From Promethearchaeota archaeon (lineage in GTDB: Archaea; Asgardarchaeota; Lokiarchaeia; Sigynarchaeales; SOKP01), in NCBI GenBank assembly GCA_019058515.1, contig JAHPYY010000210.1:1-11733 (forward strand): 11,733 nucleotides of DNA, written 5' to 3'. Position 1 is the stretch's first letter, and each line of letters begins with the position of its first letter. This document shows positions 1-11,733 of this stretch, one piece after another. The notes beneath the pieces were generated by a model. The model searched no databases and was not told the DNA's origin. It saw only the letters and a program-made list of their open reading frames with translations. A program made the translations under genes and the position numbers.

Positions 1-338
1 GGCCTGTAGACATTACTGAAGCCATAACTCAAGGATATGCTGCCGCGTCAAGAGCAAGTACTATTTTATCTCACGATACAATTAGAGTAGAGGGTGCTAC
101 ATCAAGTTTACCAGAATATAATAAAAACTTATGTACCGGTTGCGAGGTTTGTATAAAAGTTTGTCCATATCATGCTATAAAGAAAACTGATGATGACGAA
201 ATTGAAATTATTGAAGCATTATGTAAAGGTTGTGGTGTTTGTGGGGCAACGTGTACTAATCAAGCTATTGTGATTAAACACTTTACAGATCCACAAATTT
301 TATCAGAAATTTTTGTTTTTGGAGGTAGAGAAATTTAA
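1..338 (+). CDS. hdrA: HdrA-family protein, C-terminal end only (5' cut by window edge)
   Basis: This is the 3' end of a gene that begins upstream of the window; the first full codon is at base 3. It encodes about 111 residues. The first part (PVDITEAITQ, then an Ala-rich AAASRAS) matches the end of the HdrA flavin domain, as in the double HdrA downstream (PKPIEDAISQ). It is followed by a two-cluster ferredoxin domain. The first cluster motif is CTGCEVCIKVCP (from base 132) and the second is CKGCGVCGATC (from about base 222). In the HdrA family this domain carries electrons to or from ferredoxin at the far end of the flavin-based electron-bifurcating subunit. The stop codon overlaps the next start (TAATG, 336-340), so it is co-translated with the following mvhD. 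Whether the full gene is a single or double HdrA cannot be seen. The family assignment is secure. Confidence 0.88.
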   Translation, partial: PVDITEAITQGYAAASRASTILSHDTIRVEGATSSLPEYNKNLCTGCEVCIKVCPYHAIKKTDDDEIEIIEALCKGCGVCGATCTNQAIVIKHFTDPQILSEIFVFGGREI

Positions 339-1099
339 TGAGTTTCGAACCAAAGATTTTAGGGTTTTTGTGTAATTGGTGTTCATACGCTGGGGCAGAT
401 CTAGCGGGGGTAAGCAGAGTTCAATACCCCCCGAACATAAGAGTAATTAGAGTTATGTGTAGTGGTCGAGTTGATCCAAAATTTATCTTTAAGGCACTCC
501 AAATTGGAATTGATGGCGTAATAGTTATGGGATGTCATCCTGGGGATTGTCATTATCTTGAGGGTAATTATGAAGCTGAAAAAAAGTTCGAGATGGTTGA
601 GAAGTTTCTTAAATATGTGGATTTACATAAAAGAGTAAGATTAGAATGGGTTTCAGCTTCTGAAGGTGTAAGATTTGGGGAAGTGGTTAAAGATTTTACG
701 GAAAAAATTCGAGAGCTTGGACCCTCTCCTCTCAGCGGAGATCAGACAGATGAAAAATTATTGGAAAAATTAGAAGCACTTGAAGAAGCTGCCACAGATA
801 AGAGGATGAGAGCTCTTGTCGGAAGGCAAAGAAAGATTACAGAGGAAGAGAATGTCTATGGTGAAAAATTCTCTGAAGAAAAATTAATCGAGTTATTGGA
901 TCAATCAATGAAAGAAGAATATGAACGTCATAGAATTTTAATCGCTTTGGAGAAAGAGTCAAAATCAGTAAAAGATTTAGCTATTGAAATAGACTTAGAT
1001 CCCAGTATAGTTTTAGAGCATATGTTAACTTTAAAATATCGTGGCCGAGTTGATTTTCAAGAGATTATAGGAAATACACCAATATATAGGAGATTATAG
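338..1099 (+). CDS. mvhD: MvhD/VhuD-type [2Fe-2S] electron-transfer subunit with winged-helix-like C-terminal extension
   Basis: MvhD relays electrons between an electron-input module and HdrA. Residues 1-130 are a complete MvhD domain with all five family cysteines: C12 and C15 (CNWCSYAGAD), C41 (CSGR), and C66 and C71 (CHPGDC), plus the conserved YPPNIR and SASEG stretches. Known MvhD proteins are about 140 residues; this one has 253. Residues 133-195 are highly charged and probably helical. Residues 197-253 look like a winged helix: a first helix (ILIALEKES), a helix-turn-helix with VKDLAIEIDLDPSIV, and a short beta wing ending IYRRL. The start is ATG 338, preceded by GGAGGT at 321-326 and overlapping the upstream hdrA stop. 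The extension is read from sequence pattern only, and its role (DNA binding, regulation or subunit docking) is unknown. The second mvhD in this operon lacks it. Confidence 0.9.
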   Translation: MSFEPKILGFLCNWCSYAGADLAGVSRVQYPPNIRVIRVMCSGRVDPKFIFKALQIGIDGVIVMGCHPGDCHYLEGNYEAEKKFEMVEKFLKYVDLHKRVRLEWVSASEGVRFGEVVKDFTEKIRELGPSPLSGDQTDEKLLEKLEALEEAATDKRMRALVGRQRKITEEENVYGEKFSEEKLIELLDQSMKEEYERHRILIALEKESKSVKDLAIEIDLDPSIVLEHMLTLKYRGRVDFQEIIGNTPIYRRL

Positions 1100-1106
1100 A
1101 GGTGAT
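1099..1106 (+). promoter_or_regulatory. Strong Shine-Dalgarno site implying an upstream non-AUG start for the double hdrA
   Basis: GAGGTGAT at 1099-1106 is an eight-base match to the SD consensus complementary to the archaeal 16S 3' end. It begins at the last base of the upstream mvhD stop codon. It lies 27 bases before ATG 1134, too far to serve that codon, but 3 and 6 bases before in-frame ATT codons at 1110 and 1113. This is the main sequence argument that translation of the double HdrA starts upstream of the first ATG. Confidence 0.6.
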
Positions 1107-1133
1107 TATATTATTAATAAAATTGGAGCAGTA

Positions 1134-4124
1134 ATGATCGTAGGTGCTGGAATTGGGGGCTCCCAGGCAGCGCTAGATCTAGCAGATTCAGGTTATAAAG
1201 TTTATTTGATTGAATCAACCACCAGTATTGGGGGAGTCATGGCACAACTTGATAAAACATTCCCTACAAACGATTGCGCTATGTGTATTGTAAGTCCAAA
1301 ACTAGTCGAGACAGGTCGACACCAAAATATAGATTTAAGTATAAACTGTGAAATTGAAGAAGTATCAGGAGAAGCTGGTGAATTTGCCGTAAGGGTTAAA
1401 AAAAGAACATTATATATTAATCCTGATAAATGTACTGGTTGTGGAGTGTGTGGACGCGAATGTCCTGTTGAAGCGATTGATGTTTTTAATGAAAGCTTAT
1501 CTAAATGTGCTGCAACATCAGTTAAGTATCCACAAGCAGTACCACTTTTGTATGCGATTGATAGGAATTATTGTATTGGTTGTGGTATATGCCAAGGTGT
1601 TTGTAAAGCAAAAGCCGTTGAATATGACAGAGAAGACGAAGTAGTTGAATTAAATGTAGGAGCAGTAATTTTAGCTCCTGGTTTTGATGAATTTATACCA
1701 GAAGCTGCTAATTCTTATGGTTATGGCAAGTTTAAGAATGTTGTCACTAGTATAGAGTTTGAACGAATTCTCAGCGCAAGTGGTCCTTATGCTGGAAGAA
1801 TTTTAAGACCTTCTGATGGAGATGTACCAGAGAAAATTGCATTTTTACAATGCATAGGATCAAGAGACTATAAAAAAGGACAACCATATTGTTCGTCTGT
1901 ATGTTGCATGTACACCGCTAAAGAGGCTGTTATAGCTAAGGAACATATGCACCAAGTAAATCCGACTATTTTTACCATGGATATTAGGGCGTATGGAAAG
2001 GATTTCGATAAGTATATAATTCACGCTCAAGAAGAATACGGTGTGCGTTATATTCGAAGTAGAATTTCTTCTTTAACAGAAATTCTAGATACTAAAAATT
2101 TAAAAATAGTGTATGAAGCCGAGGATGGCTCCATTGTCGAAGAGATTTTTAATATGGTAGTACTTTCGGTAGGATTAAATCCTCCACACGACGCTCAATA
2201 CTTAGCTGAGAAATTCGGTATTGAATTGAACGAGTACAATTTTGCGAAAACGGATGGGTTCAATCCCGTTATGACTACCAGACCAGGAATTTTCTCTTGC
2301 GGTGCGTTCACTTCTCCTAAAGACATTCCTGAAACGGTTACCCAGGCAAGTGCAGCTGCAGGATGCGTGAATCAGTTATTGTATAAAGAAAAGGGAACCT
2401 TAATTACCGAAAAATCGTTGCCACCAGAAATTTTCGTTGCTGGACAGCCACCAAGGATAGGAGTGTTTGTATGCCACTGTGGTATCAACATTGGAGGATA
2501 TGTGGACGTTCCCGAAGTTACGAGGTACGCCAAAACTTTACCAAATGTAGTGTTAACCGATCGGAATCTTTATACATGCTCAGCAGACACTCAAACCATA
2601 ATCAAAGACAAAATTTTAGAATATAATTTAAATCGAGTAATCGTAGCTTCTTGTACTCCGAGAACTCACGAACCATTGTTCCAAGAAACCATAAGAGAGG
2701 CGGGTTTAAACAGGTATTTGTTCCAAATGGCAAATATTCGGGATCAATGCAGTTGGGTTCACATGAATGTGCCCGAGGAAGCTACTCAAAAAGCCAAAGA
2801 TCTGGTAAGAATGGCGGTAAACAAAGCTCGGAAAATACAACCGTTAGAACGCATTAAATTACTCGTTACTCATAAAGCTCTTGTCATTGGAGGAGGTATA
2901 AGTGGTATGGTTGCCGCTTTAAATTTTGCTAGCCAAGAATATGAAACTTACTTAGTTGAAAAAGAAAAAGAGTTAGGAGGCCATTCTAAGTACATTTACA
3001 CTACTCTTGAAGGCGGTAACGTTCAAGAGTACTTAAGCAACCTAATAAACCAAGTAAAAAACAATAAGCACATCCACACCTACACCCAAGTTGAAATAAA
3101 GGATATAAATGGCTACATAGGGAACTTCAAAACTTCAATTATTCACGGAGAGCATCGAGAAGAAGTCGAGTTTGATCACGGAGTAGTGGTGGTTGCTACT
3201 GGAGCACAAGAGTACAAACCCACAGAATATCTCCACGGAAAAGATGTTAGGGTTATAACCCAATCTGAATTTGAGTATGTTCTAAATGAAACAAATGAGA
3301 TTATTGATAAAAAAACTATTGTTATGATTCAATGCGTGGGTTCAAGGAACGACGAGCATCCGTATTGTAGTAAAATGTGTTGTGCAGAAGCGATTAAAAA
3401 TGCGTTACATGCTAAAAAGCTAAATCCTGATGTAAACATAGTTATACTTTATCGAGATATAAGAACTTATGGTTTTAAAGAAGCGTATTACAGAAAGGCT
3501 AGGGAAGCAGGAATTATTTTTATAAGATACGATGAGAATTTTCCCCCCATCGTAGAGAAAAACAAAGAGCATCTTAATGTAGAAATATCCAACAAAAAAT
3601 TAGGGACCATTCTAATTCATCCTGATCTTCTTGTACTAAGCGTAGGTATTGTTCCTAATTTGGAAGAAAACGATGAATTAGCGAAAATGCTAAAAGTACC
3701 ACTAAACGAAGATAACTTTTACTTAGAAGCTCATGTAAAATTACGACCCGTTGATTTCGCAACTGAAGGCGTGTTTATCGCTGGCATGGCTCACGCTCCT
3801 AAGCCTATTGAGGATGCTATTTCTCAAGCAAACGCTGCAGTCTCTAGAGCGTGTACAATCTTATCAAAAGACGAGATTGAGGCTGAAGGAAAGATTGGAC
3901 TAGTGGATCCTTCTCGTTGCGCCGGTTGTGGAATGTGTGTAGAAAATTGCGCGTACAACGCCATAGAATTAATTGAAGACAGGAGGTTTGGACTAGTAGC
4001 TTCGATTAATCAAGCGCTATGTAAAGGTTGTGGTGCTTGTGCGGGAAATTGTAGGTGCTCTGCTATAGATATTTCTGGATTTTCCGCAGAACAAGTATAC
4101 GCAATGATAACTGGGAGGTTATAA
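1134..4124 (+). CDS. hdrA: Double-length HdrA: flavin- and Fe-S-containing electron-bifurcating subunit
   Basis: This is the expected bifurcation core, with two thioredoxin-reductase-like flavin units. Unit 1 (residues 1-425) has GAGIGG at 4-9, NDCAMC around 46-51, an inserted two-cluster ferredoxin (C100/103/106/110 and C147/150/153/157), and the CIGSR...CSSVCC segment (C240, C253, C257, C258). The HdrA N-terminal Fe-S domain follows (RIGVFVCHCG from 441, C482, ASCTPRTHE with C507, RDQCSWVH with C539). Unit 2 has GGGISG at 586-591 and CVGSR...CSKMCC (C734, C745, C749, C750) but no ferredoxin insert. A C-terminal two-cluster ferredoxin closes the protein (C929/932/935/939 and C963/966/969/973). 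The roughly 1000-residue architecture is known in anaerobic bacteria and archaea. The coordinate given is the first ATG, but that would leave only three residues before the glycine motif. In-frame upstream codons encode NKIGAV, matching the usual family N-terminus, so an ATT start at 1110 or 1113 is more likely. No in-frame UGA is seen at the cysteine sites. Confidence 0.95.
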   Translation: MIVGAGIGGSQAALDLADSGYKVYLIESTTSIGGVMAQLDKTFPTNDCAMCIVSPKLVETGRHQNIDLSINCEIEEVSGEAGEFAVRVKKRTLYINPDKCTGCGVCGRECPVEAIDVFNESLSKCAATSVKYPQAVPLLYAIDRNYCIGCGICQGVCKAKAVEYDREDEVVELNVGAVILAPGFDEFIPEAANSYGYGKFKNVVTSIEFERILSASGPYAGRILRPSDGDVPEKIAFLQCIGSRDYKKGQPYCSSVCCMYTAKEAVIAKEHMHQVNPTIFTMDIRAYGKDFDKYIIHAQEEYGVRYIRSRISSLTEILDTKNLKIVYEAEDGSIVEEIFNMVVLSVGLNPPHDAQYLAEKFGIELNEYNFAKTDGFNPVMTTRPGIFSCGAFTSPKDIPETVTQASAAAGCVNQLLYKEKGTLITEKSLPPEIFVAGQPPRIGVFVCHCGINIGGYVDVPEVTRYAKTLPNVVLTDRNLYTCSADTQTIIKDKILEYNLNRVIVASCTPRTHEPLFQETIREAGLNRYLFQMANIRDQCSWVHMNVPEEATQKAKDLVRMAVNKARKIQPLERIKLLVTHKALVIGGGISGMVAALNFASQEYETYLVEKEKELGGHSKYIYTTLEGGNVQEYLSNLINQVKNNKHIHTYTQVEIKDINGYIGNFKTSIIHGEHREEVEFDHGVVVVATGAQEYKPTEYLHGKDVRVITQSEFEYVLNETNEIIDKKTIVMIQCVGSRNDEHPYCSKMCCAEAIKNALHAKKLNPDVNIVILYRDIRTYGFKEAYYRKAREAGIIFIRYDENFPPIVEKNKEHLNVEISNKKLGTILIHPDLLVLSVGIVPNLEENDELAKMLKVPLNEDNFYLEAHVKLRPVDFATEGVFIAGMAHAPKPIEDAISQANAAVSRACTILSKDEIEAEGKIGLVDPSRCAGCGMCVENCAYNAIELIEDRRFGLVASINQALCKGCGACAGNCRCSAIDISGFSAEQVYAMITGRL

Positions 4125-4125
4125 A

Positions 4126-4575
4126 ATGACAGAAACAGTAATAGAATCAAAGGAAGAAAGCGAATGGACACCTAAGATTATTGCATTTTTGTGTAATTGG
4201 TGCTCTTACGCGGGAGCTGACTTGGCGGGGGTAAGTCGAATTCAATACCCTCCAAATATCCGAATAGTTAGGGTTCCATGCTCAGGGAGGGTTAATCCCT
4301 TTTTTTTAATTAAAAGTTTGGTTGACGGTTGGGATGGAGTATTAGTATCTGGATGTCACCCAGGAGATTGTCACTATATTAGCGGAAACTACGTCGCTCG
4401 ACGTCGATTTGCTATAATTAACGACCTGCTTGAGTTCTTCGGAATTAATCCTGACAGGATTCATTTCATGTGGGCTTCAGCAGCGGAGGGTGAAAGGTTT
4501 GCAGAATTGGTTACGAAAGCTACGAATTTAGTGAAGAAACTAGGTCCAAACAAACAATTCAAAAAGGATTGGTGA
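4126..4575 (+). CDS. mvhD: MvhD/FloxD-type [2Fe-2S] electron-transfer subunit
   Basis: This second MvhD is of normal family length (149 residues). All five conserved cysteines are present: C23 and C26 (CNWCSYAGAD), C52 (PCSGR) and C77 and C82 (CHPGDC). The conserved YPPNIR and ASAAEGERF stretches are also present. It resembles the first 130 residues of the longer MvhD upstream very closely but has a different N-terminus (about 14 extra residues) and no C-terminal extension. The ATG lies one base after the stop of the double hdrA and follows GGGAGGTTAT, so the two are almost certainly co-translated and form a pair. MvhD normally docks on HdrA and hands electrons from an input module (hydrogenase, formate dehydrogenase or Flox) to the HdrA flavin. 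Here the input module is most likely the three Flox-like genes that follow. Confidence 0.95.
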   Translation: MTETVIESKEESEWTPKIIAFLCNWCSYAGADLAGVSRIQYPPNIRIVRVPCSGRVNPFFLIKSLVDGWDGVLVSGCHPGDCHYISGNYVARRRFAIINDLLEFFGINPDRIHFMWASAAEGERFAELVTKATNLVKKLGPNKQFKKDW

Positions 4576-4581
4576 GAAAAA

Positions 4582-5607
4582 ATGGTGAAAATGAAAGAAG
4601 AGAATGATAAAATTGAAAGTATAATGCGAGAAAACGCGAGAGAGTTATTAAAAAATAAAGAGGTTGATGTCGTAATTGGATATTCAAAAGGAACGGTTCC
4701 TTTAAACTCAGCTCCAATTTTTGTTAGAAAAGAAGAAAATATAGATCATTTAATTTGGAATAATTTATGTTACGTTAATTTGGCAAAGTATTTGATCCCA
4801 GAGATGACCGAACGAAGAGAGGGACAGGATGTACCACTCAAGGTTGGGGTTATATCGAAAGGGTGTACTGCTCGTGCTGTTATTCATCAAATCGTCGAAA
4901 AGCAAGTTAATGTGGAGAACATTAAAATTATTGGAATTCCCTGTAATGGCATAATTAATCGAAGAAGAATTGAGAAAGAAATAGGGGAAAGAGAAATCCT
5001 TTCCGTTGATGTCCAAAACGAGGATGTCGTTGTTAAAGGAGAAGGATTTGAAGAAAGATTTCCATTTAGCGAGTATATGAACGAATTGTGTAAAACATGC
5101 AAGATTAAAGCGCCACCCATTTCAGAAAAGCTTTCAAATATCATTGTAGGGGAATCTCAATCGGTTATGAACATTGAGGACGAGTTTCAAGATCTTGAGG
5201 AATACGAAAACTCGACTCCAGAAGAAAAATGGGAACATATTAAGACCTTGCTAAAAGATTGTACTCGATGTTATTCTTGTCGTGAGGCGTGCCCACTTTG
5301 CTATTGTAGCTTGTGTTTTGTAGACCAAAACCTTCCTAACTGGTTCGGGAAAACGACCGATCTGTCTGATATTGTGGTGTTTCACATGATTCGCGCGCTT
5401 CATTTGGCGGGAAGGTGCGTGGAATGCGGAGCGTGTAGTACTGCGTGTCCAGTAGGAATAGATTTAGCATTAATTAATCGCAAATTAGGCAAAATCGTTA
5501 AAGAACGCTTTAATTTCACTACGGGACTAAGTGTCGACGCCCTGCCCCCTATGATGACTTACAATACTAACGATTCAGAAGAATTTATGTTAGGAGAAGA
5601 ACACTAA
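4582..5607 (+). CDS. 4Fe-4S dicluster protein with FrhB-like N-terminal region (Flox-type subunit)
   Basis: This is a soluble iron-sulfur electron carrier of the type found beside MvhD and HdrA in Flox (NADH-linked) gene sets. Residues 1-180 resemble the N-terminal part of F420-hydrogenase beta-type proteins (KVGVISKGCTARAV at 87-100 and IIGIPCNGIINRR at 116-128), ending with a CxxC pair at C170/C173. Residues 225-310 form a HdrC-like two-cluster domain with C227/C230/C233...C237 and C279/C282/C285...C289. Three more cysteines (C240, C242, C245 in PLCYCSLC) follow the first cluster and could bind a further cluster. The tail ending PPMMTYNTND is conserved in these proteins as I recall them. 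The ATG follows a GGTGAG site six bases after the mvhD stop; a second ATG at 4591 is possible. The exact subunit name (FloxB or FloxC) is uncertain, so no symbol is given. Confidence 0.8.
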   Translation: MVKMKEENDKIESIMRENARELLKNKEVDVVIGYSKGTVPLNSAPIFVRKEENIDHLIWNNLCYVNLAKYLIPEMTERREGQDVPLKVGVISKGCTARAVIHQIVEKQVNVENIKIIGIPCNGIINRRRIEKEIGEREILSVDVQNEDVVVKGEGFEERFPFSEYMNELCKTCKIKAPPISEKLSNIIVGESQSVMNIEDEFQDLEEYENSTPEEKWEHIKTLLKDCTRCYSCREACPLCYCSLCFVDQNLPNWFGKTTDLSDIVVFHMIRALHLAGRCVECGACSTACPVGIDLALINRKLGKIVKERFNFTTGLSVDALPPMMTYNTNDSEEFMLGEEH

Positions 5608-5620
5608 GAGGGATAAAAAA

Positions 5621-6688
5621 ATGAAAGAAAAAATACTGTACAAAAAGGATATTCCGAAATTTTACGAAGCGTTAGTAAACGATTATAATTTCTACGCTCC
5701 AACAAAATCTGACGGTAATATAGCGTTTAAGAAAATAGATGATCCTAAAAACATCGAACTAGAGTATTTTAACTCGAAAGTACCTCCCAAGGAAATATTG
5801 TTTCCTCAAATGGAAACAATTTTTGAGTACAAGTTGGAAGGTAAGGAAACGGAAATCATAGAACGCCCGCCTATAAACAAAAAGAATTTATTATTCGGCA
5901 TTCGACCTTGCGATGCTTATAGTTTTCAATTACTTAAGAATTTCTTTGATTTTGGCAAGTTTAAAGACGATTTATTCCTAGAAAAGAAAGAAAACACGGT
6001 TATAATTGGGATTGGATGCAACACACCAAGACAAACGTGTTTTTGCACCTCGGTTGAAGGCAACCCATTTAAAATGGATGATAGCGACATCTTTTTAGTT
6101 GATCTTGGGGATAAGTACCTTATTAAAAATTATAACGAGAAAGGAAAAGCCATCATAGACAATCTATCGTGGCTAGGACCTGCCGAAGAAAAAGACTTAG
6201 AAGAAGCTATGAAATTAGAAAACGACGCTCAATTGCATTTCCAAACCAAATTAGATGTGGAGAAAGCAATTAAGGTCTTAGACGGCAATTTTGAGAACCC
6301 TATCTGGAAAGAAATTAGTGAAACTTGTATGGGTTGCGGGTCATGCTCGTTCCTGTGCCCCACCTGTCATTGTTTTGATGTTATTGACGAAACCGATCAA
6401 TACACTGGAAAAGGGCGAAGAATTCGAGTATGGGATACCTGTCAATTTTGTCTTTATACATTGCATACAAGTGGACATAATCCTCGAAACGGTAGAATAG
6501 AACGATGTCGAAACCGCCTTTTACACAAGTTTAGCTACTATCCCGAGAACTACAATCTTATAGGGTGCGTAGGCTGCGGTAGGTGTATTGGAGCGTGTCC
6601 AGTCAATAATGATGTGAGAGAAATTATCACGAAAATAAATTGTATTGAAGAAAATCAAGAGGAGGAGGAGATAATTGCAAGTCAGTAG
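5621..6688 (+). CDS. Sulfhydrogenase beta / AsrA-like 4Fe-4S dicluster protein (Flox-type subunit)
   Basis: This 355-residue protein belongs to the family of the beta subunit of archaeal sulfhydrogenase (HydB) and anaerobic sulfite reductase subunit A. Family marks are FGIRPCDAYS (92-101, C97), TCFCTSVEGNPF (139-150, C140/C142), a first cluster CMGCGSCSFLCPTCHCFDV (C236/239/242/246 plus C249/C251), DTCQFC (C274/C277) with TSGHNPR, and a final cluster CVGCGRCIGACP (C316/319/322/326). It should pass electrons between the FAD/NAD(P) protein encoded next and the rest of the Hdr complex. The ATG is preceded by an AGAGGGA ribosome-binding site 13 bases after the previous stop. Its last 14 bases overlap the next gene. 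The acidic C-terminus (EENQEEEE) is encoded by the same purine-rich bases that form the next gene's ribosome-binding site. With its neighbour it forms the usual beta-gamma pair. Confidence 0.88.
   Translation: MKEKILYKKDIPKFYEALVNDYNFYAPTKSDGNIAFKKIDDPKNIELEYFNSKVPPKEILFPQMETIFEYKLEGKETEIIERPPINKKNLLFGIRPCDAYSFQLLKNFFDFGKFKDDLFLEKKENTVIIGIGCNTPRQTCFCTSVEGNPFKMDDSDIFLVDLGDKYLIKNYNEKGKAIIDNLSWLGPAEEKDLEEAMKLENDAQLHFQTKLDVEKAIKVLDGNFENPIWKEISETCMGCGSCSFLCPTCHCFDVIDETDQYTGKGRRIRVWDTCQFCLYTLHTSGHNPRNGRIERCRNRLLHKFSYYPENYNLIGCVGCGRCIGACPVNNDVREIITKINCIEENQEEEEIIASQ
6661..6670 (+). promoter_or_regulatory. Shine-Dalgarno site supporting a TTG start
   Basis: The purine run GGAGGAGGAG inside the end of the preceding gene lies four bases before TTG 6675. 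It fixes the start of the FAD/NAD(P) reductase at a TTG codon, since no ATG occurs in that frame until residue 81. Confidence 0.7.
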
Positions 6689-7520
6689 TCCTTACATTCC
6701 GATTCTGACCTATATAAAATCTATTGTATCGGAAAACAAGGTAAACGACATTAAAACCTTCGAACTTGTGTTTAAAAACGACGAAGATTTAAAGAAATTT
6801 GATTACATTCCAGGTCAATTTGCGGAGTTAAGTTTAATAGGCAAGGGAGAATGCCCGATTGGGATTGCTTCCTCACCAACGGAAGAAGAATCCATTCAAT
6901 TTACGATAAAGAAAATGGGAACTGTTACAACAGAATTTCACAATTCAGAAATCGGAGATGTAGTTGGCATAAGAGGTCCTTTAGGAAACGGGTGGCCGAT
7001 CGATGATATGAAAGGCAAAAACATTGTAGTTATCGGCGGTGGATTCGCATTTTCTACCCTTCGCTCCCTAGTAGTATACATGTTAAACGAGAAGAACAGG
7101 GCAAACTTTGGAAACATAACGGTGATATATGGTAACAGAGATTCAGGAGAAGTATTGTATCGTAATGTTTTAAGCGAATGGGAAAAACGAGACGATATAA
7201 AAGTTGTACTTACCATCGATAGAGAAGAAAAAGGATGGACTAAAGAAGTTGGATTTGTTGCCGCTATCGTTAAAAAAGTCGCACCTTCTCCCGAAAACGC
7301 GGTTGCTATCGTATGTGGACCGCCAATAATGATTAAAACCGCGGTAACTGAGCTCGTTGCGCTTGATTGGCAAGACGAGAACATTTTAAACTCTTTAGAA
7401 ATGAGGATGAAATGCGGAATTGGAAAATGTGGCAGATGCAACATAGGAAGTAAATTTGTTTGCGTTGATGGTCCAGTATTTTCGCTGGCTGAACTTAAGA
7501 AATTGCCAAATGAATATTAA
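6675..7520 (+). CDS. FAD/NAD(P)H-binding oxidoreductase with [2Fe-2S] tail (sulfhydrogenase gamma / AsrB / FloxA-like)
   Basis: A ferredoxin-NADP reductase-fold protein that should oxidise or reduce NAD(P)H and exchange electrons with the dicluster protein encoded just upstream. Residues 5-100 form the FAD-binding barrel (PGQFAEL at 46-52 and CPIGIASSP at 60-68). Residues 115-235 form the nucleotide domain, with a glycine-rich loop GGGFAFSTLRSL at 121-132 and the family motif VCGPPIMIKTA at 213-223. The C-terminus binds a [2Fe-2S] cluster through C247, C252, C255 and C263, the arrangement seen in dihydroorotate dehydrogenase PyrK, HydG and AsrB. The 281-residue length is typical. Translation starts at TTG 6675, overlapping the previous gene by 14 bases. 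The loop AFSTLR differs from the more familiar G(I/L)APLR of related enzymes, so NADH versus NADPH preference cannot be read from it. This is the likely electron-input end of the Flox-like module. Confidence 0.9.
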   Translation: MQVSSPYIPILTYIKSIVSENKVNDIKTFELVFKNDEDLKKFDYIPGQFAELSLIGKGECPIGIASSPTEEESIQFTIKKMGTVTTEFHNSEIGDVVGIRGPLGNGWPIDDMKGKNIVVIGGGFAFSTLRSLVVYMLNEKNRANFGNITVIYGNRDSGEVLYRNVLSEWEKRDDIKVVLTIDREEKGWTKEVGFVAAIVKKVAPSPENAVAIVCGPPIMIKTAVTELVALDWQDENILNSLEMRMKCGIGKCGRCNIGSKFVCVDGPVFSLAELKKLPNEY

Positions 7521-7563
7521 AATTATATTATTGAAAATTAATTAAAATAAAGGTTAGAAAAAA

Positions 7564-8682
7564 GTGGTTGAAGAAGTAATCCCAAAATCGTTTGAAGATT
7601 TAATTAAAGATGTACACGAACCAGGGATATGTGGAGAATGTGGTGGATGTGTTAGTTTTTGTTCAGCACATGAGATAAAAGCAATTGAGATGTCTGAGTC
7701 TGGTCCTCCTAGATATTTTAATAAAGATAATTGTTTGCATTGCGGAATTTGCTATTTAATTTGCCCACAAACACATGTTTTGGATAATGAATTGAACGAA
7801 AAATATAAATACAAGGTTTCAATTGGAAAGTGGATTAAAATAGCCTCAAGTCAATCAACTTCAGAAGATATTAGAAATGAAGCTTCTGATGGAGGGGTGG
7901 TCACTGGAATATTAACGTATCTGCTTGATAGAAACTTAATAAACGGGGCAATCGTTTCCAAAAGAGAAGGCCCATTTAATAGAGTTCCCTTCTTTGCATC
8001 ATCAAAGGAAGAATTAATAGAAGCTGCAGGATCTCATTATGACTTATCTCAGGGTGTCGTAGGGTTAGAGAAATATAATTCATTTGTTCCAACAATTACA
8101 AAGCTCAAAAAATTGGTAAGTTCAGATGCAATGAATATTGCAGTTGTAGGAACTCCATGTCAAATCATGTCCATAAGAAAAATGCAGGAACTTAGTATAC
8201 TTCCTGCTCATATTATAAAGTATACTTTAGGATTGTTCTGCAATCTAAATTTCTCATTTCAAGCTGAAGCACGTAAAAAAATGGAAGAAAAATTCGACTT
8301 TTCTTTTGATGATGTAGAAAAACTAAACATCAAAGAAGATTTAATGATACACCTTAAAAATGGTCAAACCAAACATATAGGGTTTGAAGAAATTCATGAA
8401 TTTGCCCGTCATGCTTGTTTTGCGTGTAGAGATTTCTCTAATGTTTATGCCGATATCTCTTTCGGAGGACTAGGCTCTAAGGATGGATTTACGACTACAG
8501 TCATTAGAACAGAATTAGGCGAACAAGTATACAACCGTGCGCTTAAAGAAGGTTATATACAAGAACCCTTTGATTTGAATACTTCTGTAAAAAAATCTGA
8601 AATGCTAGCAAAGATAATAAGTTTTGGTAAAAGAAAATTCGAGAGATATAAAAAGTCTTTAGAAGAAAGAATAAATGTCTAA
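7564..8682 (+). CDS. frhB: FrhB/FdhB-family coenzyme F420 oxidoreductase beta subunit (FAD, 4Fe-4S)
   Basis: This protein belongs to the family that binds FAD and exchanges hydride with coenzyme F420 in F420-reducing hydrogenase, F420-linked formate dehydrogenase and FpoF. Residues 20-70 carry two 4Fe-4S motifs: C23/C26/C29/C33 and C57/C60/C63/C67. Residues 95-370 hold the FrhB core, with EASDGGVVTGILTYLLD (106-122), VVGTPCQI (194-201, C199), GLFCNLNF (223-230), CFACRD (C285/C288) and ADISFGGLGSKDG (296-308). The start is GTG 7564; the same frame has a stop just upstream (7555) and a weak AGGT site precedes it. It lies 43 bases after the FAD/NAD(P) gene, so it is probably the last gene of the operon. 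It gives the cluster a second carrier besides NAD(P)H. F420 use is inferred from the family; some relatives act on other substrates such as sulfite or ferredoxin. Confidence 0.85.
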   Translation: MVEEVIPKSFEDLIKDVHEPGICGECGGCVSFCSAHEIKAIEMSESGPPRYFNKDNCLHCGICYLICPQTHVLDNELNEKYKYKVSIGKWIKIASSQSTSEDIRNEASDGGVVTGILTYLLDRNLINGAIVSKREGPFNRVPFFASSKEELIEAAGSHYDLSQGVVGLEKYNSFVPTITKLKKLVSSDAMNIAVVGTPCQIMSIRKMQELSILPAHIIKYTLGLFCNLNFSFQAEARKKMEEKFDFSFDDVEKLNIKEDLMIHLKNGQTKHIGFEEIHEFARHACFACRDFSNVYADISFGGLGSKDGFTTTVIRTELGEQVYNRALKEGYIQEPFDLNTSVKKSEMLAKIISFGKRKFERYKKSLEERINV

Positions 8683-8698
8683 GTAAATAAATTTTAAG

Positions 8699-8722
8699 AA
8701 TCTCTCTCTTTATTTTTATTTT
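8699..8722 (+). terminator. Pyrimidine/T-rich tract after the frhB-like gene, probable archaeal-type terminator
   Basis: About 16 bases past the frhB-like stop codon lies a CT-repeat followed by T runs (ATTTTTATTTT). Archaeal transcription commonly ends at such U-rich tracts without a stem-loop, and no clear hairpin precedes it. It would separate the two operons. Confidence 0.4.
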
Positions 8723-8942
8723 GAATCAAGACAATTTATTTAGTGAAAATTTCTGAATTATATATTTTGAATCTTAATATTTTGTTAATTTCAGATTTTG
8801 GGAATTGAAATTCTTCCGTGAAAGGTTACCGAGATTGATCATTATTGTTGTGGGATATTTTCGAGATTGATTAAAAAAATTCCGATAATGATGTGAGAAC
8901 TGCATTAATTTATTTCTATATTTGACAGATTTGTAAGTTATC

Positions 8943-8983
8943 AATTATCGAAATCGAAAATATTTTAAGGGAAATTTGTTCGG
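8943..8983 (+). repeat. Diverged 41-bp direct repeat, copy 1
   Basis: This copy begins AATTATCGAAATCGAAAATA and ends TTGTTCGG. It matches copy 2, located 145 bases downstream, at 35 of 41 positions without gaps by hand alignment. Each copy contains a tandem ATCGRA-ATCGAA half-site. The similarity extends weakly a few bases upstream. Confidence 0.75.
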
Positions 8984-9087
8984 TTTCGGTAATCTTGCCT
9001 CGGTTTTCGATCGGGCTCAGTATTTTCGATCCTTTTTGATCGCTATATTCCGACAAATTTTTCGGATACAATAACTTTTAACCTATA

Positions 9088-9128
9088 AATTATCGGAATC
9101 GAAAATAATTTTAAGGAAAAATGTTCGG
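9088..9128 (+). repeat. Diverged 41-bp direct repeat, copy 2
   Basis: This copy begins AATTATCGGAATCGAAAATA and ends AATGTTCGG. It pairs with the copy at 8943-8983. It lies just upstream of the TATA-like box at 9143, a position suitable for a regulator-binding site, though that role is inference. Confidence 0.75.
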
Positions 9129-9142
9129 GATCGATCATTGCA

Positions 9143-9150
9143 TTTAAATA
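9143..9150 (+). promoter_or_regulatory. Possible TATA box for the hdrD-hdrA operon
   Basis: TTTAAATA fits the archaeal TATA consensus. Transcription would begin about 25 bases downstream, near 9170-9180, giving a leader of roughly 105 bases before GTG 9284. No clear purine-rich BRE precedes it, so confidence is low in such AT-rich DNA. Confidence 0.3.
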
Positions 9151-9283
9151 CTGAAGATTCTTCTTAAATTATTTAGAGCACACAAAAAAAATATCATTAT
9201 AATTCAATTTTAAAAGTCATTTTTAAAAGAAAATATCAAAAGTAAGATGATGGATTATTTCCAGAAACAAATTACAAAATTCT

Positions 9284-10522
9284 GTGAAGAATTCTGATTT
9301 TGATTTAAATTTAATTAAAGACTTATCAAAAATCAAAGAAGCGCAGAGTATATCAGGGTGTTTTCAATGTGGAATATGTTCATCAAGTTGTCCTATTACA
9401 GAAACATTTCCCTTAAATCCACATGTAATGACTAAGTTAGCAGCTTTAGGAGCGAAAAATCAAATTGTAAAAGAAAGCGTTCTTAAATATTGTTTGACTT
9501 GCGGGACATGCCAAGAATATTGTCCACAAGAAATAAATTTTATTGAATTCATAAAATCCGCTAGAAGGTTATTAGTAAATAAGGTAATTAAATACGAAGA
9601 AACACATCATGGTATTTTAACTCTTTTATCTGAATTACAAGCGAATCAATCACCAGGTCTTAAATTATCAGATAGCATAATACCAAACGGATATCCAATT
9701 TCTAAAAAAGGAAATGTTGCATATTTCTTTGGATGTTTACCAATTTTAGATGTTGTCTTTAAGGATTTAAAATTAAATTTAGTGAAGATCGCGCAGAATG
9801 GGATAAAGATTTTAAACGAAATTCTCGAACAGCCGCCTGTTCTTATTGAAAACATGAAATGTTGTGGTCATGATGCCCTCTGGAAAGGATACTTTGAGGT
9901 TTTTAAAAAACTAGCGATCCATAATGTAAACGAAATTAACAAATTAGGCATAACTACTGTTGTGACTACATGCGCAGAATGTTATAGAACATTAAAAATA
10001 GACTATCCAAAGTATGTAAATGTTGATTTTGATGTTGTTCACCTTACAGAATTGATTGCTAATAAAATCAAAAATGATCAATTTAAATTTAAGGATACTC
10101 GTAATCAGGCTGTTACTTATCACGATCCTTGTAGATTAGGTAGACATATGAAAGTTTATTCTCCTCCTAGAGACATATTAAATTCGATGAAAAATCATGG
10201 AATCGTTTTTAACGAAATGCAAAGAACAATGGAAAATTCTGTTTGTTGCGGAGTAAGTTGTTTTATAAATTGTAATGATTTGTCAAAAGCTTTACAACTT
10301 GACAGAATAAATGAAGCAAAAAATGTTGCAGATTTGCTAGTTACTACATGTCCAAAATGCCAAATACATTATAAATGCTTGTTACAGGAGAAAAAAGAGC
10401 AAAAATCTGAAGAAATAGAATTAGAAATCTCTGATTTAACGAATTTGATAGCCAACATGATGGAAGTCTCAGCGGAAAAAATCTCAGAGGAAAAAAGGGA
10501 AGAAATATTATTAGCTCCATAA
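9284..10522 (+). CDS. hdrD: HdrD-like protein: 4Fe-4S (HdrC) plus two CCG domains (HdrB)
   Basis: The catalytic-type subunit of heterodisulfide reductase, with HdrC and HdrB parts fused in the HdrD order; its 412 residues match methanogen HdrD (about 408). Residues 24-82 hold two 4Fe-4S motifs (C26/29/32/36 and C70/73/76/80). The first CCG domain uses C151, C193-C194 (KCCGHD) and C230/C233 (TCAEC). The second uses C283 (HDPCRLGRH), C321-C322 (VCCGVSC) and C356/C359 (TCPKC). In HdrB these cysteines bind the two noncubane 4Fe-4S clusters that reduce a disulfide. The natural substrate here (CoM-S-S-CoB or another disulfide) is not shown by sequence. The start is GTG 9284; the same frame reaches a stop at 9248 without an ATG, and no strong ribosome-binding site is visible, so the start is less certain. 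The tail (370-412) is charged and helical. Its neighbour is hdrA, and no hdrE is in view. Confidence 0.9.
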   Translation: MKNSDFDLNLIKDLSKIKEAQSISGCFQCGICSSSCPITETFPLNPHVMTKLAALGAKNQIVKESVLKYCLTCGTCQEYCPQEINFIEFIKSARRLLVNKVIKYEETHHGILTLLSELQANQSPGLKLSDSIIPNGYPISKKGNVAYFFGCLPILDVVFKDLKLNLVKIAQNGIKILNEILEQPPVLIENMKCCGHDALWKGYFEVFKKLAIHNVNEINKLGITTVVTTCAECYRTLKIDYPKYVNVDFDVVHLTELIANKIKNDQFKFKDTRNQAVTYHDPCRLGRHMKVYSPPRDILNSMKNHGIVFNEMQRTMENSVCCGVSCFINCNDLSKALQLDRINEAKNVADLLVTTCPKCQIHYKCLLQEKKEQKSEEIELEISDLTNLIANMMEVSAEKISEEKREEILLAP

Positions 10523-10531
10523 AATCTTGTC

Positions 10532-10537
10532 GGAGGT
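10532..10537 (+). promoter_or_regulatory. Shine-Dalgarno site of the downstream hdrA
   Basis: GGAGGT lies ten bases before ATG 10548 in the short gap after the hdrD-like gene. It supports this start and tight coupling of the two genes. Confidence 0.65.
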
Positions 10538-10547
10538 TTAGGTTAAT

Positions 10548-11733
10548 ATGTTAAAAAAGGAAAAAGACGAAGAATCGATAAGAATAGGTGTTTTCATTTG
10601 TCATTGCGGTTCAATTATTGGAGATAAATTAGATTGCAAAGCACTTGCGGATTTTGCTAAATCGTTACCTAATGTTGAATATTCTGAAGATAATTTATAC
10701 GCATGTTCAGAACCAGGATTAACCAGTATTAAATACGCAATTAAAGAGTATAATTTAAATCGAATTGTATTGGCATCTTGTACTCCAAGAACCCATGAAA
10801 ATCTCTTCCAGAATACCTTTCGAGAGGCAGGAATAAACCCGTATTTATATAAGTTAATAAATCTTCGAGATCAGTGTTCTTTTGTCCATATGTCTGATCC
10901 TGAAAAGGCAATGGAAACGGCAAGAGATCTTTTATCCTTAAATGTTTCAAAAGTTAAACTTCTAGAGCCAATTTTTGAAACCACAGTTGAAATAACACAA
11001 TCGGGACTAATCATAGGTGGTGGAATCGCTGGATTAACCGTTGCTCTAAGTTTAGGTAGGCAGGGGTTTGAAACATATATTGTTGAAAGAGAAAGAGAAT
11101 TGGGAGGACTTGTTAGAAAAATTCAATATATTTTGGGAGAAGGGAATCCTCAAGAATACCTCGAGAATCTCATTGAAAAAATAGAAGATCACAAGAAAAT
11201 TAAGATTTTTACGGAAGCTGAAATAGAAGATATAAATGGATTCATAGGAAACTTCTCGACCATAGTAAAGCAACGAGGTAAGAAGAAGGAAATAGATACC
11301 GGGGTGATAATTGTCGCAACAGGTGGAATCGAATATAAACCAAGAGAACTAATGTATGGACTGGACGACCGGATTATGACTCAATTAGAATTAGAACAAA
11401 AAATTATGTCAAACGAAGTAAAAGCAAAAACAATTACGATGATACAATGTGTAGGATCAAGGACAAAAGAACGTCCAAATTGTAGTAGAATTTGCTGTTC
11501 CGAAGCGATTAAAAATGCATTGAAATTAAAAGAGGAGTATCCAAAAATTAATGTTTGTATTCTTTATAGAGACATTCAAGTATACGGTTTTAAGGAGGAT
11601 TATTACAAGGAAGCTAGAGAAAAAGGAGTTATTTTTATTCGATTCGATGAAGATTTCGAGCCAACAATAGATATTAAAGAAAAAGACTTAACAATATCGG
11701 TAAAAAGTGTTTCGTTAAATGAACTGATAAAGA
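10548..11733 (+). CDS. hdrA: HdrA-family flavoprotein, N-terminal 395 residues (3' cut by window edge)
   Basis: The reading frame is open from ATG 10548 to the end of the window. It begins with the HdrA N-terminal Fe-S domain (RIGVFICHCG with C18 and C20, YACS with C53, ASCTPRTHE with C78, RDQCSFVH with C110). A thioredoxin-reductase-like FAD domain follows (GGGIAG at 157-162, VERERELGG at 179-187, VIIVATGG at 253-260). Next comes CVGSR...CSRICC (C301, C312, C316, C317) and the RDIQVYGFKEDYY region. It aligns closely with the second half of the double HdrA upstream, including the absence of the ferredoxin insert that ordinary methanogen HdrA carries between the FAD motifs. The C-terminal ferredoxin domain, if present, lies beyond the window. 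It starts 25 bases after the hdrD-like gene and is probably its electron-transfer partner. Confidence 0.92.
   Translation, partial: MLKKEKDEESIRIGVFICHCGSIIGDKLDCKALADFAKSLPNVEYSEDNLYACSEPGLTSIKYAIKEYNLNRIVLASCTPRTHENLFQNTFREAGINPYLYKLINLRDQCSFVHMSDPEKAMETARDLLSLNVSKVKLLEPIFETTVEITQSGLIIGGGIAGLTVALSLGRQGFETYIVERERELGGLVRKIQYILGEGNPQEYLENLIEKIEDHKKIKIFTEAEIEDINGFIGNFSTIVKQRGKKKEIDTGVIIVATGGIEYKPRELMYGLDDRIMTQLELEQKIMSNEVKAKTITMIQCVGSRTKERPNCSRICCSEAIKNALKLKEEYPKINVCILYRDIQVYGFKEDYYKEAREKGVIFIRFDEDFEPTIDIKEKDLTISVKSVSLNELIK

Follow-up and report, generated by a model that had tools for sequence, protein, structure and literature searches.

A tandem-HdrA operon with a Flox-type NAD(P)H module and a divergent FrhB-like protein in a Promethearchaeota archaeon

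Gene content of the locus

The stretch of DNA analysed here, positions 1 to 11,733 of contig JAHPYY010000210.1 (forward strand) from a Promethearchaeota archaeon of the Sigynarchaeales (assembly GCA_019058515.1), comprises 11,733 nucleotides (nt) and is referred to as the window. It carries an operon in which genes for HdrA of heterodisulfide reductase (Hdr) are followed by an NAD(P)H module of the FlxABCD/Flox type and by a gene for an FrhB-family protein, which a preliminary description of this DNA had taken as a module for coenzyme F420. Among the 13 open reading frames (ORFs) of at least 80 amino acids (aa), three are antisense ORFs inside genes and ten are coding, all of the latter on the + strand. 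Eight of these ten, from 3-338 through 7564-8682, lie in a row, the distance from the end of one to the start of the next being -14 to 43 bases. Matching of the window proteins to Pfam and NCBIfam gave the following features (flavin adenine dinucleotide, FAD; iron-sulfur, Fe-S):

3..338, + strand: 3' end of HdrA-b, i.e. its C-terminal two-[4Fe-4S] ferredoxin domain (HdrA2 profile 539-637), the remainder lying upstream of the window
338..1099, + strand: MvhDx, an MvhD/FlpD protein extended at the C-terminus by a stretch that ends in a winged-helix-like fold (FlpD, 8.8e-54)
1134..4124, + strand: HdrAA, a fused double HdrA (profile matches and alignment)
4126..4575, + strand: FloxD, an MvhD/FlpD protein without extension (FlpD, 5.5e-53)
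4582..5607, + strand: FloxC-like dicluster Fe-S protein (Fer4 models, residues 224-293; same position in relatives)
5621..6688, + strand: FloxB, a HydB/AsrA-like Fe-S protein (Fer4_22, 2.3e-30)
6675..7520, + strand: FloxA, a HydG/AsrB-like FAD/NAD(P)H reductase with a DHODB-type Fe-S domain (NAD_binding_1, 1.6e-15; DHODB_Fe-S_bind, 2.9e-10; FAD_binding_6, 8.8e-05)
7564..8682, + strand: FrhB-family flavoprotein of a divergent subfamily with an N-terminal two-cluster ferredoxin part
8683..9283, no strand: AT-rich spacer of 601 bases after the operon

ORFs and profile matches thus confirm the genes, their places, the single + strand and the gaps given in the preliminary description. Its operon of 338..8682 holds in content and coordinates, but not in its start, as the end of an HdrA gene at 3-338, corresponding to the 560-aa-type HdrA ORF of relatives, precedes position 338. 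The double HdrA can be refined to a fusion of two non-identical halves, and of the two MvhD proteins, both of which were recovered, the first additionally bears about 125 C-terminal residues compared with ordinary MvhD. In FloxA all three domains expected for FlxA are over cut-off, and a match to the cytochrome-c3 hydrogenase gamma subunit (1e-63) is below it; FloxB likewise matches sulfhyd_HydB (1.4e-57) and AsrA (1.5e-41), each below the curated cut-off. The protein encoded by 4582..5607 we presume to deserve the Flox name. As stated earlier for this locus, models of hydrogenase or formate dehydrogenase catalytic subunits are absent over cut-off for the ten ORFs among the matches listed, weak [FeFe]-hydrogenase matches at the ferredoxin parts of the double HdrA and FrhB ORFs being far below cut-off. 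Among hydride donors, NAD(P)H is the only one whose module could be identified with fair certainty.

Conservation of the operon in relatives

A search with the FrhB protein retrieved 2412 proteins at E <= 1e-20, of which the best 120 were examined; the own protein aside, these are 63-85% identical, and the named organisms among them belong to Promethearchaeota or an Asgard lineage. The locus set consists of the best 80 of 256 confirmed genome stretches, in which HdrA genes were labelled by BLAST against the window HdrA (E 1e-8), with some labels being wrong, e.g. the NuoF-like 596-aa ORF of L067. Loci of the Flox type number 31 (L001-L027, L030, L037, L041 and L046; L018 and L041 assigned by kinship only), and in 29 of them floxA immediately precedes frhB on the same strand, the contigs of L018 and L041 beginning too near frhB to judge the preceding gene. 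The gap between floxA and frhB is 14-54 nt in 28 loci, and in L003 an overlap of 107 nt results from an over-long start.

When 13 Asgard regions were extended upstream, the order hdrC-hdrB-hdrA-hdrA-mvhD-hdrA(double)-floxD-C-B-A-frhB was found in 12 (L083-L094), the contig of L096 (Sigynarchaeum) ending at mvhD. Gene order that recurs over so many relative loci places the grouping beyond chance, i.e. the operon is real and conserved, and the Hdr core and the NAD(P)H module share one co-directional, FlxABCD/Flox-like operon as had been proposed. Linkage of frhB restricted to this contig, named beforehand as the finding that would count against the grouping, is not what we see, and with its recurrence in many relatives a single-contig accident is ruled out. 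As the ORF 3-338 is the 3' end of an HdrA gene and hdrA-a, hdrB and hdrC precede it in 12 of the 13 relatives, the window very probably holds only part of the operon, the rest being predicted to lie upstream. HdrA itself is encoded in the window, whereas hdrB and hdrC of this operon, like the F420 genes discussed below, were read from the genomes of relatives.

The arrangement is variable in its details. FrhB2, a second FrhB-like gene whose product is 33-35% identical, lies between hdrB and hdrA-a in six of the 12 complete operons. In the Bathyarchaeon L095, hdrC-hdrB and two opposite-strand genes are followed by frhB-hdrA-hdrA-mvhD-hdrAA-floxD-C-B-A, and the Spirochaetales contig L097 contains hdrC-frhB-hdrAA-floxD-C-B-A. 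Linkage of frhB at differing positions in distant lineages points to a functional tie.

Complementary HdrA halves

In an alignment of the window HdrAA with 5odc_A the first half is devoid of the N-terminal domain but has the equivalent of Cys197 and the cysteines of the inserted ferredoxin domain, whereas the N-terminal domain and the eight cysteines of the C-terminal ferredoxin domain are located in the second half, which has neither Cys197 nor the inserted domain. The separate HdrA-a and HdrA-b ORFs are divided just as the halves of HdrAA are. Over 83 HdrA rows, 42 have the Cys197 equivalent (41 HdrA-a or N-halves and one full-type protein, L047_A554, with both ferredoxin domains) and 41, all of them HdrA-b or C-halves, do not; the HdrAA rows of L086, L096, L071, L079 and L080 were divided at mid-length, as the split motif was not found, so that part of the N-terminal domain occurs in both of their halves. 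E356 is found in 83/83 rows and K409 in 82/83, with Arg in one, and the window HdrAA has two thioredoxin-reductase domains with the equivalents of both residues. E356 and K409 are described as marks of a bifurcating FAD (PMC12054007; papers are cited by PubMed Central number). A pattern check in relatives found two CCG-type motifs in HdrB and two 4Fe-4S motifs in HdrC in 10/10 loci, the sequence signature of a disulfide-type site thus being intact there.

Tandem HdrAs that complement each other have been reported from anaerobic methanotrophic (ANME) archaea (PMC9012536). Like the tandem or fused HdrA of ANME archaea (PMC9012536) and type II HdrA (PMC12054007), the proteins studied here have lost the N-terminal domain and Cys197 in a complementary manner and have kept E356 and K409, and in those systems, too, some clusters contain FrhB/FdhB homologs. 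However, HdrAA places the half with the N-terminal domain second, whereas HdrA3/4 have it first, and the module is Flox rather than that of the ANME and type II clusters, no FdhA-like protein having been found in the cluster. On the basis of these two papers the tandem architecture is thus known in kind, whereas the number of pairs and the set of modules differ.

The FrhB-like subfamily and coenzyme F420

The FrhB fold and its four Fe-S cysteines are present in the window-type protein, the pattern CCCC occurring in 81/81 rows. In FrhB, Ser209 adjoins the F420 ring, and the lysine turn 163-IGKGK was proposed to contact the F420 phosphate (PMC3591093). Position 209 is Gly in 81/81 window-type rows and Ser in 4/4 references from F420 enzymes. 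As TIGR03289, the model of FrhABG-type FrhB, gave no match over cut-off in any of 18 genomes, canonical-motif paralogs (putative F420 users) and PDB chains served as comparison set instead; the 30 paralog loci were selected as top scorers with the FrhB model and therefore lean canonical, and L112 gave no row. Of the FrhB tree only the split of the window clade, with a support of 100/99, was evaluated, since references and FrhB2 form long branches that meet (L041 was dropped as incomplete; L003, L036 and L079 were trimmed).

Genes for F420 synthesis were sought in genomes that bear the subfamily. None of cofG, cofE and cofD is over cut-off in 13/13 bacterial or Thermoplasmatota genomes (11 bacterial and two Thermoplasmatota). 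Completeness is not stated for the genomes scanned, although the records of G022 and G023 bear the title chromosome. Weak cofG matches occur in four of the 13 (G028, G033, G035 and G036), and the cofG model also yields matches below cut-off in control genomes, e.g. E. coli. In five of the 13 (L047, L067, L076, L079 and L080) FloxA is encoded in the same locus as window-type FrhB, i.e. the Hdr-Flox-FrhB set is present where F420 is probably not made. With Gly in place of Ser209 and these 13 genomes, the former assignment of the FrhB-type protein as F420 module could not be upheld: F420 use by the subfamily is unsupported, yet possible, and a role of the protein as FAD/Fe-S relay, or as port for some other carrier, is more probable.

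Several findings weigh against this reading. Gly at position 209 is also small, so that a contact with F420 could survive. In the lysine turn, window-type rows have one basic residue (Lys or Arg) followed by an acidic one, the basic residue being kept in 81/81; it aligns with position 164 in one alignment and with 165 in another, none is found at 167, and loss of a pocket lysine in every row is thus alignment-dependent. The turn also varies among the references, 8rja_E being without the GKGK form as well. Moreover, Asgard hosts do have genes for F420 synthesis: cofG is over cut-off in 17/37 genomes, all of them Asgard (17/18 Asgard genomes), cofE in 21/36 (16/17 Asgard and 5/6 Bathyarchaeal) and cofD in 7/24 (5/5 Asgard and 2/6 Bathyarchaeal). 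FrhB-like may be a true F420 port, the complex coupling NAD(P)H and F420 to ferredoxin and a disulfide, e.g. with F420H2, at about -350 mV, standing between NAD(H) and ferredoxin as a carrier of intermediate potential. We regard such a port as rather doubtful, as Gly replaces Ser209 across the subfamily, as the subfamily occurs in the 13 cof-negative genomes and as it is paired in some loci with a second FrhB that does bear canonical motifs.

As a separate observation, the Bathyarchaeal genomes G018 and G026 have CofD and CofE over cut-off without a CofG match. Window-type FrhB is also found fused to histidine-kinase ATPase domains, at 9968-12004 of L079 (WOR-3) and at 7896-9989 of L050 (Anaerolineae).

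Linkage of frhB to the Hdr core

It is the Hdr core, not Flox, to which window-type frhB is linked, since sister clusters carry MetVF or a canonical FrhB, not Flox, and since Flox occurs without FrhB. Ten of the 80 loci, all Lokiarchaeal, are of the MetV type (L029, L031-L035, L038, L039, L042 and L066) and contain hdrA-hdrA-mvhD, an HdrAA of 1152-1154 aa and metV, with hdrB-hdrC in six and metF visible in four; Pfam matches identify MetV and MetF in L035 and an HdrAA-MvhD fusion in L031, the other MetV loci being assigned by BLAST and length. In seven further loci of the 80 (L055, L059, L064, L068, L069, L075 and L078) a second FrhB lies 4-19 nt upstream of the window-type FrhB, an HdrC-HdrB fusion comes next, and a double HdrA and MvhD follow downstream in five, L068 and L075 ending earlier. 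This second FrhB has canonical motifs in six of the seven, the copy in L078 being a 159-aa fragment.

It is improbable that FrhB is a passenger, i.e. co-transcribed but serving another partner. Although frhB is the last gene of the operon at Lokiarchaeal loci, is divergently transcribed (373-521 nt away) in the MetV loci and in two loci of Syntrophaceae has hydrogenase or maturase genes as neighbours, ORFs labelled HdrA-like by BLAST occur in 65 of the 80 FrhB loci, several of the other 15 being short contigs, and these HdrA-linked loci come from Asgard archaea, Bathyarchaeota, Thermoplasmatota and several bacterial phyla, with varied gene positions.

A constant association has its exceptions, which speak against our interpretation of the operon. 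The two Syntrophaceae loci, L057 and L065, contain HydF but no HdrA-like ORF, L057 also a [FeFe] hydrogenase. In a reverse search with FloxA over 119 genomes from the phylum of the L001 genome, 50 matched and 30 loci were kept, one per genome and with flanks of about 1.5 kb. Close FloxA proteins (at least 60% identity) are adjoined by frhB in 11/17 loci and not in 6/17, and distant ones in 0/13, as judged within the 1.5-kb flanks only; several of the 11 FrhB-adjacent genomes were already in the earlier set, and genomes with two copies of floxA (e.g. G001) were judged on one, so that 6/17 may overstate the missing FrhB. Flox and FrhB as an obligate pair are ruled out by this search (6/17 close and 13/13 distant without adjoining FrhB). 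Apart from this, a second Lokiarchaeal Flox arrangement, floxC-B-A without FrhB and with a convergent HdrA-like gene right after, is seen in L128, L130 and L135.

Two alternative complexes, Hdr-Flox and Hdr-FrhB, might form separately, each MvhD serving one input with its own HdrA pair. This would agree with gene sets that each encode two MvhD proteins and two C-terminal ferredoxin domains and with the existence of both FrhB clusters without Flox and Flox loci without adjoining FrhB, but the single-operon order retained in 12 of the 13 upstream-extended Asgard regions makes us think it rather unlikely.

Relation to known complexes

The closest counterpart is FlxABCD-HdrABC (Flox-Hdr), reportedly described by Ramos et al. 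in 2015 as an NADH dehydrogenase/heterodisulfide reductase, whose subunits we take to include HydB-like, Fe-S and MvhD proteins together with FlxA. The window likewise has NAD(P)H/FAD reductase, HydB-like, Fe-S and MvhD subunits beside Hdr genes, but differs in that its HdrA pairs number two, one of them fused, that an additional MvhD bears a winged-helix-like tail and that a window-type FrhB closes the operon. In contrast to methanogen HdrABC-MvhADG, MvhA and MvhG are not listed for the window ORFs, and in the 12 complete operons all ORFs of at least 70 aa from hdrC to frhB are Hdr, MvhD, Flox or FrhB by BLAST, the search being confined to these regions of the genomes. The FrhB module of the Ca. 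Ethanoperedens F420-reducing carbon monoxide dehydrogenase and formylmethanofuran dehydrogenase (8riu, 8rja) has the same FrhB core and N-terminal ferredoxin part, but Ser209 is Gly in the window subfamily. With the HdrCBA-MvhD-MetVF methylene-tetrahydrofolate reductase of Moorella and Sporomusa (PMC9430772) the ten Lokiarchaeal MetV loci have the idea of a chassis in common, whereas the window has Flox for MetVF and, additionally, a linked FrhB. For Korarchaeia an F420-reducing complex of FrhB, HdrA and MvhD has been put forward (PMC10667645), and for Bathyarchaeia FrhB together with HdrABC (PMC7886697). In open-licence PMC literature, as far as its text was available and with subscription papers mostly outside that scope, we found no description of Flox, HdrABC and FrhB in one cluster, and the combination is a new variant of known Hdr complexes, although its novelty is not proven.

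A candidate bifurcating complex

Gene order, domain content, motifs and subfamily distribution suggest how complex formation, electron path, direction, stoichiometry and substrates might look. We consider it somewhat more likely than not that the operon encodes a soluble FlxABCD(Flox)-HdrABC-type complex of Lokiarchaeota-like archaea that works by flavin-based bifurcation or confurcation, with an FrhB-like part that is more likely not an F420 site. Electrons from NAD(P)H would enter at the FAD of FloxA and would pass via FloxB/FloxC and the MvhD-type FloxD to the C-terminal ferredoxin domain of HdrAA, where bifurcating FADs would send one part through the inserted ferredoxin domain to ferredoxin and the other to HdrBC, whose genes are predicted to lie upstream of the window. 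The second pair, HdrA-a/HdrA-b, with its own MvhD would give two asymmetric HdrA pairs per gene set, so that two stacked bifurcation steps may be possible. From the shared operon one may infer, as the preliminary description did, a joint complex and NAD(P)H:F420 exchange, and both are to be read in this conditional sense.

As the input varies between Flox, MetVF and a separate FrhB with canonical motifs, the FrhB-like subunit would stay with the tandem-HdrA chassis. We tentatively speculate, with less confidence than for the Flox-Hdr complex itself, that the window-type FrhB subfamily is independent of F420 and is a fixed component of a tandem-HdrA supercomplex of modular build, occurring in Asgard archaea, Bathyarchaeota and several bacterial phyla. 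Its chassis (HdrBC, two asymmetric HdrA pairs and two MvhD) would take Flox, MetVF or canonical FrhB and may couple two bifurcations, and FrhB-like would be the port or relay common to all of these, its carrier not being F420. If true, a chassis with swappable modules would mean one complex family for NAD(P)H, methyl-branch and F420 inputs.

To our knowledge, the disulfide substrate of Hdr is an open question across Asgard archaea generally. For soil Asgard lineages the heterodisulfide is called unidentified in PMC11291895. A conserved NAD(P)H-tandem HdrA operon offers one testable enzyme for the balance of NAD(P)H and ferredoxin in relatives of eukaryotes. Many named homologs among the best 120 of the 2412 FrhB matches bear the name 'coenzyme F420 hydrogenase subunit beta' or a similar one, and metabolic models built on the F420-hydrogenase name may assign an F420 reaction that the window subfamily may not have.

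Further features of the locus and its relatives

Past the spacer, the window contains a second Hdr cluster (9284-11732), in which an HdrC-HdrB fusion precedes the beginning of a further HdrA; among the Flox-type loci only L001 has this cluster as neighbour. The spacer holds a 63-nt direct repeat (8931-8993 and 9076-9138, 78% identical). A sigma-70 scan gave 46 promoter-like sites against 40.8 (standard deviation 7.5) expected, the sigma-70 model being uninformative for archaea.

In Spirochaetales L047 (2619-7726) a NuoF-like protein and then a [2Fe-2S]-HdrA fusion are encoded near Flox, HdrC and FrhB. At 8396-9493 of the same locus a FloxC-like protein matches FrhB_FdhB_C in part, a hint that FloxC and FrhB may be related.

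The structure model of MvhDx has a mean pLDDT (predicted local distance difference test score) of 81.7, residues 1-28 being below 50, and Foldseek matches it to MvhD chains at E 7e-09 to 7e-08 and to winged-helix regulators only at E of at least 0.03. The winged-helix-like C-terminal part of MvhD is retained in Flox clusters and MetV clusters. Finally, HdrAA of relatives starts with about eight extra residues (MEKxGAV), and window positions 1100-1134 hold in-frame codons for a similar stretch without ATG, GTG or TTG; the true start may thus precede 1134 by a few codons, with a non-standard start codon near 1116.

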